Below, piece by piece: positions 15,231 through 31,473 of a stretch of 33,891 nt of DNA. The first letter of the stretch is position 1. The number at the start of each line of letters is the position of its first letter. This DNA comes from Fibrobacter succinogenes (GTDB taxonomy: Bacteria > Fibrobacterota > Fibrobacteria > Fibrobacterales > Fibrobacteraceae), in contig CACZII010000003.1 in assembly GCA_902781185.1 (NCBI GenBank), positions 837 through 34,727 of the forward strand, written 5' to 3'. Below the pieces are notes generated by a model, which did not search any database, had not been told where the DNA came from, and saw only the letters and a program-made list of their open reading frames with translations. The translations under genes were made by a program, and so were the position numbers.

Positions 15231-17015
15231 TCAGCTATTGGTTTCCTGGCTGCCTTCGATAATCCACTTGCACAGCTCCTGGATTCCCTCGAAGTCGGGC
15301 AGGCTCTTGATAAAGTCTGGCGACTTGCACCGCTCTACAAAGCCGTTCCAGGCCCCTTCGTTTTTCGCCTTGATTCCCAGGTGCTCTTCGATGGCCCCGT
15401 GGGTCCAGACCCAGATTCCCTGGCTCCGGAGCTTGGCGTGGATGCTCCTGATGGGGCGTTCCGCTTCGGGCATGGAGGCCATCATGGAATAGGCCATAGA
15501 GGCGCTGATGTTGCTGTGCTTGCTTACGGGAAGTCCGTTGTTCAACCGCATGTGATGATGAAAAGCCAGTTCCCTGAACAGGTTCCGACAGAACTTTACG
15601 TCGGGGTCGTTTGCCTCTAGGAATCCATCACGGGTGGCGGTGGTGAAGGCGTAGTCCAAGTCTACGATTGCTCGCACCGGCATGTCCATGGCATTCAGCA
15701 CCTGCATACTTTTGCGGGTGTTGCTCACACCACCCTGACGCACCAGGGCGCATTTGATAAGGGCAAAAGATTTTCCCGTAATCCGTTCAAACAGGGCAGG
15801 GAGCACTCGCCATTCAGTCTTACCTTCGGTGAGCAATACATAATCTGCGAAGAGCAACTCATTGCTGTTACTCAAGCTGAACAGCATCTGTAGCTGGCTG
15901 GGAGCGTCCTGCACCACCTGATGCACGGCATCTTCGATACGCTTGCGCATGAAGGTGCCCCGTTCCTTGTTCTTACGGATAAGCAAGGAAGTACTCACGT
16001 CTTCGCTTGTGACCATCTGGGCGCTGTGGGTGGCGAATACAATTTGGTAACCTTCGTTGGAAAGGTTCTTCAGGGCCACACGCACCAGTTCCACCGCCTG
16101 GGGGTGCAAGAACAGTTCCGGCGAGTCTATCAGGAGCATGGTTCTGCTCAGGTAGTGGTTGTTGTGGTGTTTCTTGATTTCGGAAAGGTAGCGGACCAGG
16201 GCCATCTGGATAGCGCGCTGGCTTCCGGCGCCCATGCGGTTGATGTCACGCTCGAATCCGTCGTCTTCGTCGATGACCTTTAGGCTTGCTGTTTTGAGGA
16301 AGGTTTCCAGCGTGGGAATGGGTATATCCAGTTCTACGCGGACGCTGGGGAATAAGGGCTGCAATTTCTCGTTGACTTCACGGTCAAAAGACTTGATTTC
16401 GGCGGCTTGGTTCTCGCCTCCCGGTGAAAGCAGGTCGTTGAATTTCCCGATGATATCGTTAAATTCTCCACCGAATCTACGCTCCAGTGGCTTAAAAATT
16501 TCATGCAGAAGTTTGGTAAAGGCCTTGTTTCCTTCAAAATCCCAGATGGCGATGGGTTCGGGGAACATACGCTTGAAGGCGTGCTTGAAGTCGTCGCCCA
16601 CCCGCATCCAGCCCTTGCGGCTCCCGTTCTGTCGTTGCGGTGGTACCAGTGCCCACAGCTCCACGTTCTCTGGCGGGATTCCAGGCACCCGCTGGACCTT
16701 CTTTACCCGAAGGCTTTCACCATTCAGGAACGGTACGATTTCTTTGGCTTTTTCTTCGCCTAGGCGGTTCAGCACGGTCTCCGAAATGCCCTGGAAATGC
16801 CCTTCCACTTCTACCGGCTCATTGCTGTCGTCAAAGTACGAGACATCCAGTGAAAAAGGCGACAGGAGCCACCGGATTCCCATGAGGATGTTGGTCTTGC
16901 CCGCGTTGTTGTAGCCGATCAGGGCAGTCATGTTGTTCAGGGGAAAAGTCTGCCTGTGGATAGACCGCAGGTTGCAAATCGTAATCTCGGATAATCTTAA
17001 CGGCTGGGGCTGCAT
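15231..17015 (-). CDS. OLD-family ATP-dependent endonuclease (AAA ATPase plus TOPRIM)
   Basis: 594 residues from ATG 17015. The ABC/SMC-like ATPase has Walker A GYNNAGKT (34-41), a signature-like RMGAGSQRAIQMALVRYL, Walker B LLIDSPELFLHPQ (about 295-305) and a His switch FATHSAQM. The C-terminal TOPRIM has Glu397 in LLTEGKTEWR and Asp452/Asp454 in VDLDYA. This is the OLD nuclease architecture. A UvrD-like GajB partner is absent, so it looks like a stand-alone (class 1) OLD protein. Known OLD proteins nick or cleave DNA, and some act in phage defence; that role here is inferred. Earlier in-frame ATGs (17030, 17042) exist, but a TATATTCA box 4 nt before 17015 favours this start. Confidence 0.87.
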   Translation of the reverse strand: MQPQPLRLSEITICNLRSIHRQTFPLNNMTALIGYNNAGKTNILMGIRWLLSPFSLDVSYFDDSNEPVEVEGHFQGISETVLNRLGEEKAKEIVPFLNGESLRVKKVQRVPGIPPENVELWALVPPQRQNGSRKGWMRVGDDFKHAFKRMFPEPIAIWDFEGNKAFTKLLHEIFKPLERRFGGEFNDIIGKFNDLLSPGGENQAAEIKSFDREVNEKLQPLFPSVRVELDIPIPTLETFLKTASLKVIDEDDGFERDINRMGAGSQRAIQMALVRYLSEIKKHHNNHYLSRTMLLIDSPELFLHPQAVELVRVALKNLSNEGYQIVFATHSAQMVTSEDVSTSLLIRKNKERGTFMRKRIEDAVHQVVQDAPSQLQMLFSLSNSNELLFADYVLLTEGKTEWRVLPALFERITGKSFALIKCALVRQGGVSNTRKSMQVLNAMDMPVRAIVDLDYAFTTATRDGFLEANDPDVKFCRNLFRELAFHHHMRLNNGLPVSKHSNISASMAYSMMASMPEAERPIRSIHAKLRSQGIWVWTHGAIEEHLGIKAKNEGAWNGFVERCKSPDFIKSLPDFEGIQELCKWIIEGSQETNS

Positions 17016-17019
17016 ACCT

Positions 17020-17027
17020 TGAATATA
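17020..17027 (-). promoter_or_regulatory. TATATTCA box of the OLD-family gene
   Basis: On the minus strand TATATTCA is followed by AGGT and ATG (4 nt spacing), the same geometry as at nrdR, the PPTase gene and the gene at 30556. Confidence 0.4.
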
Positions 17028-17049
17028 CATTATTAGGGGCAAAAAATTC

Positions 17050-29164: not shown

Positions 29165-30535
29165 ATGAACATGAGTATTCTTTATTACCTCGTGTGGCTT
29201 CTCGCCTTCGTGGCGGGTGTCGTCCTTTCGTTTTATGCTCCCGAAACCACCCTCTCGGTGGGGGTGAAGTTCATCTTTGTGGGCGTCTGGGGCTCTGTTC
29301 TCGGGTTTATTTTCTACATCGTCGCCCGTCGGGCGGTTCAGGATAACGAGAGCGAAGAGGTGCCGACACCTAATCTGCGCCCCATTACGGAACTTGTTCC
29401 GGTTGTTGCTTCAGAACTTGCGAAATCTACAGCTGAAGAAACTTCAACCGAAACGCCTACTCCAGAATCCGCCGAGGCTCCGACCCCTGCGCAGGCAGCA
29501 ACGGCTCCGGAATCCTTGCTCGAACCCAAGGAGCTTTTTCCCCTTGCTGATTGGGATGATTTCTGCAAGCAGATTCTCAGAAACAGGCCGTTTTCCGAAG
29601 TGGTTGGCGTCCTAGAAAAAGTCATGCCCAAGCTGTTCCCTGGGGCGGCAGGTGTCCTTTACATGTACGGTGATGCCCAGTCCGAAATGCACAAGGTCTT
29701 TTCTTTCGGAGACTATGTCATCAGCGGCGATACCATGATGCCTGCGGAATGCGCCAGCTTCAATCTTGGTGAGATTGTGGTGAACGACTACACGGCGGAC
29801 AAGGTGACGGCGGGCTGTACGCATTTGCATTACCATAGCCAGGGTGTTGCTTTCTGTGCCCCTATCGAAGGTCTGGAAGAACATTTTGGTACGCTCTGTG
29901 TCCAGGTGGACAAGCTTCCCGATGGGGAAAGCATTGATTTCTGGAAGGCGAAGGTCAGCATTGTGTCGGCCACCTTCGGTCTGTATGTGGCGAACCAGAA
30001 TTTGAATATCCGGTTCCAGCAGCACAGCATCCGCGATAACTTGACAGGGCTTTTCAACAAGCGCTATATGGAAGAATCCCTTCGTAGGGAAATTTTCTCC
30101 GCATCTCGTCATAAGACACCTATCGGCATTATCATGCTTTATCCCGACGAAATTCCCATGCTTCAAGAAAAGCGTGGCCGTCATGCAGTGGAGCAGATGC
30201 TCTGGGAAGTGGGCCAGCGCCTGCCCAGCTATATCAGGAACGAGGATATTCCCTGTCGTTACAACGGCGACGTATTCTGCGTAATTCTGCCCGGTGCGGA
30301 CTACAAGATTACCAAGGATCGGGCCGAAAAGATACGCCACGAGATTTCTCAGCTCCAGGTGGCCTATGGTGACGGTATCCTGAAGACCACCCTGAGCATC
30401 GGTGTTTCCGTAATGCCCATCCACGCTATCGATGTTCAGACCCTGATAGCCACTGCCGAGGCGTCTATGCAGATGGCGTCGGTCAGTGGCGGAAACCGCG
30501 TGGTTCTGGCGGAGGCGTTGAACAAGCAGGCCTAA
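29165..30535 (+). CDS. Membrane-anchored GAF-like plus degenerate GGDEF protein
   Basis: 456 residues (ATG 29171 is an equally plausible start; TAAATTAA lies 5 nt before it). Two hydrophobic segments (about 4-25 and 35-58) anchor the protein. A Pro/Ala/Glu/Thr-rich linker (about 65-120) follows. A GAF-like domain (about 125-280) contains FSEVVGVLEKVMPKLFPGAAG and GTLCVQVDKLPDG. The GGDEF domain starts at DNLTGLFNKRYMEE. The signature is RYNGDVF (Asn367-Phe371) instead of RYGGDEF, so cyclase activity is unlikely. The inhibitory I-site RxxD (Arg358, Asp361) is intact at the canonical spacing. It may therefore be a c-di-GMP-binding or purely structural signalling protein. The next gene starts 20 nt downstream. 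Confidence 0.85.
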   Translation: MNMSILYYLVWLLAFVAGVVLSFYAPETTLSVGVKFIFVGVWGSVLGFIFYIVARRAVQDNESEEVPTPNLRPITELVPVVASELAKSTAEETSTETPTPESAEAPTPAQAATAPESLLEPKELFPLADWDDFCKQILRNRPFSEVVGVLEKVMPKLFPGAAGVLYMYGDAQSEMHKVFSFGDYVISGDTMMPAECASFNLGEIVVNDYTADKVTAGCTHLHYHSQGVAFCAPIEGLEEHFGTLCVQVDKLPDGESIDFWKAKVSIVSATFGLYVANQNLNIRFQQHSIRDNLTGLFNKRYMEESLRREIFSASRHKTPIGIIMLYPDEIPMLQEKRGRHAVEQMLWEVGQRLPSYIRNEDIPCRYNGDVFCVILPGADYKITKDRAEKIRHEISQLQVAYGDGILKTTLSIGVSVMPIHAIDVQTLIATAEASMQMASVSGGNRVVLAEALNKQA

Positions 30536-30555: not shown

Positions 30556-31473
30556 ATGAAAAAATTTATCGTCCCTATAGTCCTTCTGTTCTTGTGTGCC
30601 GGAGTGCTACTGTACCTGCTTTCGGACTTTTCTTCTGGACGTTCTTCGTTTGATGCCGATGCCTACCTGCAGGCCCGCGGTAAGATTGACTCCCTGGAAG
30701 TGGCCTTGTGGGATGCACGTGACAATGCCGATGCCCAACTCGCTATCCGTAATGATCTGGAAATTGCCTGGCAAGACCTGAACGCCTTGCGCCAGAAGAA
30801 TCCCGAGGGTGAATCCCAGGAATCCGACAAGGCTGTGGCTGGCATTTCCAAGTCTGCCCTTGTATGGGTGGTTGGCGGCGTCCTTGCGGTGCTGGTCTGC
30901 ATTATCCTTCTGGCTGCGTTAAGCCACCGCAAGAAGGTCCTGACCCAGAGGATGGAGGCCCTGAAGGCCGAGAACCGTTTCCGTGAGCCCAAGAATGGCT
31001 ACGAAAATGACCCGACCATTGCTCCGCGCCCCCGGGCTCCCAAGCATTCCATTATCGAAGAGGCCGATGAGTTTGCCGAAGCCAAGGAGACCAAGGTTTC
31101 TTTCGAAGACGAGAATGGCAATCCCGAGAACAAGGTTCTGTTACACGATCTAGGCAAGCGCCCCCAGCTCCGGCCTACTGCCAAGGAGCGAATCACCTCG
31201 GCTATCCAGTCCCTTTCCGAAGTTCTGCGGGCTCCCCGCGGTCTTTCCCGTGACAGGACTATGAAGCTCAGGGCCCAGAGCCACAATGTGACGGGCAATC
31301 CGACCCTCCAGGGCAGTAACCCCTTGGAGACAAGTCGATTTGATAAGGAATTTAGCGAAAAGAGTAAAATCCTTCAGATGTCCCGCCGTGGGTTCCCTGC
31401 TTCCGCTATCGCTACCCAGTTGAAGATTCCTCAGGAGCAGGTAGAAGCCGTTATCAAGAGCGCCATGGAATAG
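30556..31473 (+). CDS. Two-transmembrane protein with coiled coil and HTH-like C-terminus, unknown function
   Basis: 305 residues; no family recognised. TM1 is at about 4-23. A charged, probably helical segment rich in Ala, Asp and Leu (about 33-82) is predicted to be periplasmic. TM2 is at about 101-123, followed by SHRKK. A long polar cytoplasmic tail follows (Pro-rich PRPRAPKHS, then acidic, then basic). The last 30 residues (SRRGFPASAIATQLKIPQEQVEAVI) read like a helix-turn-helix of the kind that follows a conserved RGxxxxxIA pattern. It sits between the GGDEF-like gene and truA (13 nt to truA), so the three may be co-transcribed in part. A link to the GGDEF-like neighbour is only positional. 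Confidence 0.75.
   Translation: MKKFIVPIVLLFLCAGVLLYLLSDFSSGRSSFDADAYLQARGKIDSLEVALWDARDNADAQLAIRNDLEIAWQDLNALRQKNPEGESQESDKAVAGISKSALVWVVGGVLAVLVCIILLAALSHRKKVLTQRMEALKAENRFREPKNGYENDPTIAPRPRAPKHSIIEEADEFAEAKETKVSFEDENGNPENKVLLHDLGKRPQLRPTAKERITSAIQSLSEVLRAPRGLSRDRTMKLRAQSHNVTGNPTLQGSNPLETSRFDKEFSEKSKILQMSRRGFPASAIATQLKIPQEQVEAVIKSAME

Follow-up and report, generated by a model that had tools for sequence, protein, structure and literature searches.

One gene in a stretch of 33,891 nucleotides from Fibrobacter succinogenes (the whole stretch is hereafter the window) probably encodes a membrane-anchored c-di-GMP receptor derived from a former diguanylate cyclase. Judged from its sequence and those of its relatives, the protein is very unlikely to be able to make c-di-GMP and is probably a sensor of it, and the comparisons below support a selective retention of the I-site while catalysis was lost. 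The protein is a direct candidate for a c-di-GMP receptor of Fibrobacter, a digester of plant fibre in the gut, and among the papers listed by searches for Fibrobacter with c-di-GMP or with GGDEF there was none that, by its title or the start of its abstract, has such a receptor as its subject. It also offers a natural case of an enzyme turned presumed receptor of its own product, for which intact relatives and an intermediate form allow comparison.

The gene is a complete ORF of 456 aa on the plus strand (29165..30535; the parts of the protein described below lie on the same strand), for which translation, Pfam and AlphaFold2 give two transmembrane helices joined by a linker to a GAF domain, after which comes a degenerate GGDEF domain. 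The AlphaFold2 model, made from an alignment of 49 orthologues, has a mean pLDDT of 81.7 and places helices at residues 3-24 and 32-63, a low-confidence linker at 63-120 and a mixed domain at about 127-275. Membrane anchoring, proposed in the initial annotation, agrees with both hydropathy, which finds two hydrophobic segments, and structure prediction: predicted transmembrane helix 1 (residues 3-24; 29171..29236) carries a Kyte-Doolittle peak, and predicted helix 2 (about residues 32-55; 29258..29329) is followed by R55-R56. In the model a long helix at residues 257-287 (29933..30025) connects the GAF domain to the GGDEF domain (residues 289-445; 30029..30499). The latter is matched by Pfam PF00990 over residues 289-445 with 98.8 bits against a cut-off of 23.8, and its model is matched by solved GGDEF domains at Z 22-27 in a fold search, including PDB 6d9m (Z 26.9, rmsd 1.7, 164 aligned). 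Two ATGs stand at the start of the frame, at 29165 and 29171, and most orthologues align from the second. Translation may begin at M3, and as most orthologues appear to start there the residue numbering might move by two.

Orthologues were gathered in two rounds, in which 69 matched loci yielded 54 distinct proteins including that of the window, and 40 more matches added 23. The resulting set of 77 distinct sequences comes from Fibrobacteraceae, apart from one probable orthologue outside the family, and includes four partial rows (L075, L076, L106 and L113); numbers of changes were counted by parsimony on a FastTree tree of 74 of the 77. The closest named relatives are from Fibrobacter, with up to 90% identity. 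The gene was found in 36 of 36 genomes of the same genus that were searched, and the best matches in all 36 hold a reading frame without internal stops, two of them cut by contig ends. A profile of the GAF domain matched 95 of the 167 genomes of a phylum sample, all from the same family except G038; it had no match in one genome of the same genus (G122, 70% complete) and in several genera of the family, including genus g16 with 0 of 12 listed genomes. The receptor candidate is thus widespread in Fibrobacteraceae, though not universal. The assembly from which the window derives is itself a bin of 2.2 Mb, 72% complete.

By the residues compared here, the loss of catalysis goes further than the initial annotation saw. 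The destroyed active site described there, with N367-G-D-V-F371 (30263..30277) in place of GG[DE]EF, was confirmed, and metal-, guanine- and phosphate-binding positions are lost as well. Positions 326, 334, 343 and 439 have metal- or guanine-binding roles that we assign from PleD; the window protein has Y326, Q334 and E343 for the D, N and D of active cyclases, and its residue 439 is not Lys. It consequently has neither the GG[DE]EF signature nor the metal and guanine residues of an active diguanylate cyclase. The degeneration is shared by the orthologues, none of which (0/77) reads GGDEF or GGEEF, the signature occurring in 32 variants; an acidic residue (E/D) stands at 370 in one of the 77 and at 326 (D/E) in one. 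Inferred changes at positions 367 to 370 number 20, 8, 15 and 14, where the mean for the GGDEF domain is 7.3 on the tree of 74, and the active-site positions together (326, 334, 343, 367-370 and 440) average 14.0 changes against the same domain mean, a value that random sets of positions reach in 0.7% of cases.

Such free drift of the active-site positions is what a decaying pseudogene would show, but this explanation is largely refuted and retains practically no chance of being correct: the frame is open in the best matches of the 36 genomes of the genus searched, and the rest of the protein is strongly conserved. Residual diguanylate cyclase activity from a non-canonical signature is hardly more credible. 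A single change in the signature need not abolish activity, since V. cholerae VCA0965 is reported to be active with AGDEF (PMC3974145); here, however, E370 has become V and the equivalents of D326, N334, D343, K439 and R443 are lost in addition. It is also very unlikely that another nucleotide, such as cGAMP, ppGpp or allosteric GTP, is bound by the I-site or by the active site in its altered form. PleD with ppGpp or pppGpp plus c-di-GMP does appear among the fold matches (PDB 9g85 and 9g86), and an acidic residue (D or E) occupies the position of D369 in 61 of the 77 orthologues, but the orthologues have for the most part lost the residues that bind guanine, metal and phosphate, with N334 kept in 4 of 77, D343 in 11, K439 in none and R443 in 2.

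The evidence for a receptor of c-di-GMP resides in the I-site. Its motif, R358-N359-E360-D361 (RxxD; 30236..30247), lies five residues ahead of the pentapeptide and has R-A-I-D as its counterpart in the alignment with PleD, in agreement with the canonical spacing reported initially; the coordinates given at that time are exact, with the codon of R358 at 30236-30238, that of D361 at 30245-30247 and NGDVF at 30263-30277. Loss of RxxD among orthologues, which would have spoken against the proposal, is seen in none of the 77: all carry RxED, and the 74-sequence tree gives no inferred change at R358, E360 or D361, in a domain that drops to 33% pairwise identity, which argues that the conservation is not due to chance. 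Taken alone, two invariant residues are weak statistics (p ~0.02 for such a pair by chance), because 24 of the 159 positions of the GGDEF domain are invariant, R290, D291, T294 and N298 among them. The region also contains R386 and K389 (30320..30331), the former present in 77/77; because R386 joined the I-site set only once its invariance had been noticed, the p of 0.0033 obtained with it is left out of the argument. Position 389 corresponds in the alignment to R390 of PleD, the third arginine of its I-site, and is K in 52, R in 24 and M in one of the 77 orthologues. PleD R313 we take to be the arginine that a second subunit contributes to the I-site, and the residue aligned to it is S, A or E in the orthologues, with no counterpart arginine. 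The I-site called intact in the initial annotation is therefore so in its RxxD, and departs from that description in having K389 for the third arginine and nothing corresponding to R313. For PelD the third I-site arginine is given as R402/R395, and alanine at the matching residue of the B. cereus protein is reported to have abolished detectable binding (PMC7112168), though K389 differs from the alanine of that mutant.

These same features can be turned to another explanation, in which the degenerate GGDEF domain is a module for dimerisation or protein contact, RxED is kept for folding or contact, and the GAF domain is the real input. The many further invariant positions, the lysine at the third I-site residue and the missing second-subunit arginine all fit it, as does E360, which is as invariant as R358 and D361 and is, to our knowledge, no ligand of c-di-GMP. 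We regard this alternative as unlikely, if deserving of some weight, in view of two observations. First, the fold can spare RxxD: the alignment, as read here, gives degenerate signatures for eight GGDEF domains of the same genome (L007, L119, L121, L123_12, L124, L125, L126 and the window protein), of which only L007 (RNND, GPDVF) and the window protein keep the motif, so the fold does not require it. Second, 76 of the 77 orthologues have a basic residue at 389, against 0 of 10 relatives from outside the group that have an intact active site, as though the I-site had become stronger in Fibrobacteraceae. As a separate observation, L007 (G000:C41:4947-5423) is a GGDEF-EAL-like protein, EAL having been recognized by eye, and its GPDVF and RNND make it a further candidate of this type.

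The outside relatives bear as well on the origin of the presumed receptor. Plasmid records were searched by tblastn with the full-length protein as query, and collinear GAF-GGDEF matches (27-33% identity) came from Chroococcidiopsis, Leptolyngbya, Deinococcus, Nitrobacter, Novosphingobium, Eleftheria and Rhizobium; the set of ten compared here consists of nine of the ten listed matches (H23 was left aside) and one Legionella record. All ten have GGEEF with the D/N/D substrate residues, all ten carry the Cys-Cys-His-Cys set of the GAF domain described below, and nine retain the R and D of the I-site. Through collinear homology and the four GAF residues the window protein belongs to this subfamily of GAF(C-C-H-C)-GGDEF cyclases of Deinococcus, cyanobacteria and Proteobacteria (for example WP_015162917.1 and WP_249396439.1), whose ten members compared here differ from it in their intact active-site motifs and in having no basic residue at 389. 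The outside relatives are, we infer, active enzymes, and their intact GGEEF alongside the same GAF domain argues for descent of the window protein from active diguanylate cyclases. The simplest history would have an active cyclase of this subfamily lose its active site en route to Fibrobacteraceae. RxED is also present in Deinococcus relatives with intact active-site motifs; what is seen is therefore retention of the motif, not gain. A protein from another family within the order (L077), a probable orthologue, has D at 326 and R-E-G-E-F, and by these partly degenerate motifs represents an intermediate state.

A GAF-like domain had also been proposed, and a GAF fold was found by structure prediction and fold search at about residues 127-275 (29543..29989). 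The domain modelled alone has a pLDDT of 91.8, and its best PDB match is the NLH2 GAF domain (Z 15.6, rmsd 3.2, 152 aligned). Pfam gave no GAF match in the window protein, GGDEF being the only domain found, and GAF_3 matched only 3 of 31 family members; compared by sequence with solved proteins, the GAF domain had no match at E <=1 and marginal ones only up to E 10. Four of its residues are strictly conserved: C196 (29750..29752) in the 76 of 76 orthologues that cover the position, and C218 and H220 (as C-T-H, 29816..29824) together with C231 (29855..29857) in 77 of 77, each also in ten of ten outside relatives. The C-x-H...C motif is missing from the 30 GAF_2 loci listed, as it is from the three that the same genome has. 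The presence of such a set in one small GAF domain suggests a metal or redox input, and lends some substance to the earlier idea that the protein joins two signals. No assigned function for this set was found in the literature searched, where the CSK/Hik2 sensor kinases provide an analogy only for a possible role of the cysteines: a GAF-domain cysteine is reported to help hold a redox cluster there (PMC6949291), but these are kinases with another cysteine pattern. A fuller proposal, in which the four residues form a metal or redox centre that gates c-di-GMP binding and adhesion to cellulose or its breakdown answers to both signals, is a doubtful one to which we give little credence.

The surroundings of the gene provide no conserved functional operon. 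The neighbours scanned were TIGR03960 (radical SAM), a coiled-coil protein, TruA and PdxJ, with no pel genes among them. The gene is divergent from that for the TIGR03960 protein and is usually followed by genes for a coiled-coil membrane protein and truA. In the window the coiled-coil gene (30556-31473) encodes 305 aa with two hydrophobic segments, seen by eye, and a weak C-terminal match to DUF6115. It was considered as an operon partner and rejected, the downstream link being broken in several species: the neighbourhood scan puts it about 3 kb from the orthologue in L050, L054 and L055 and did not find it nearby in L056, L058, L059 and L070. No operon function is claimed for it. Elsewhere in the window, on the minus strand at 15231-17042, lies a gene for an AAA ATPase with an OLD-like TOPRIM domain, an OLD-family nuclease; nucleases of that family are often tied to phage defence.

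How the candidate receptor might act can be sketched in outline. Intact cyclases of the same cell would supply c-di-GMP, the genome having 18 GGDEF matches, several with GGEEF or GGDEF, and one PilZ match. The ligand would bind at R358 and D361, aided by K389 and R386, and could then alter or cross-link the GGDEF domains of a dimer, with the GAF domain adding a second input, perhaps the state of a metal or of redox at its Cys-Cys-His-Cys set. Because the protein is without an output domain, its effect would be exerted by contact with another protein at the inner membrane, in a PelD-like manner. The sole PilZ match of the assembly (L131, G000:C95) lies at a locus whose longest frame appears PilM-like by eye. 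Measurable c-di-GMP is reported for F. succinogenes S85, about 2.5-fold higher on cellulose, along with changes in three GGDEF proteins upon growth on that substrate (PMC6851124). The same source describes FSU_2692 of S85 as GGDEF, GAF, GAF2 (PMC6851124), a protein that more likely corresponds to the paralogue found in L004/L130 than to the orthologue of the window protein.

Receptors with a degenerate A-site and an I-site of this kind are already known. PelD proper was rejected as an identification for lack of both a profile match and a pel operon context: PelD_GGDEF (PF16963) has no match in the window protein at E <=0.1, and the same result for its whole genome does not imply absence there, 14 control genomes being equally silent. 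PelD structures are absent from the fold matches listed, which is no argument against similarity. PelD has about four transmembrane helices, differing in this from the window protein with its two. The PelD proteins of Pseudomonas aeruginosa and Bacillus cereus otherwise resemble it in combining membrane helices, a GAF domain and a degenerate GGDEF domain with RxxD, although with R402/R395 in place of its Lys, and PelD is reported to bind c-di-GMP at the I-site and to work by contact, without catalysis (PMC7112168). SgmT of Myxococcus xanthus, likewise reported as a c-di-GMP receptor, shares the GAF domain, and its GGDEF domain combines a degenerate A-site (GGGVF) with an RHPD I-site (PMC3509222). 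Between these two domains SgmT carries kinase and receiver domains, neither of which the window protein has. PopA of Caulobacter is soluble, with receiver domains, whereas the window protein is membrane-anchored and has a GAF domain. Nevertheless PopA, a reported c-di-GMP effector, is similar in its degenerate A-site and intact RxxD (PMC12564702). Since a degenerate A-site and an RxxD five residues ahead of the signature are what the window protein has in common with all three, its likeness to PelD, PopA and SgmT offers, by analogy, the best reading of what it may do.
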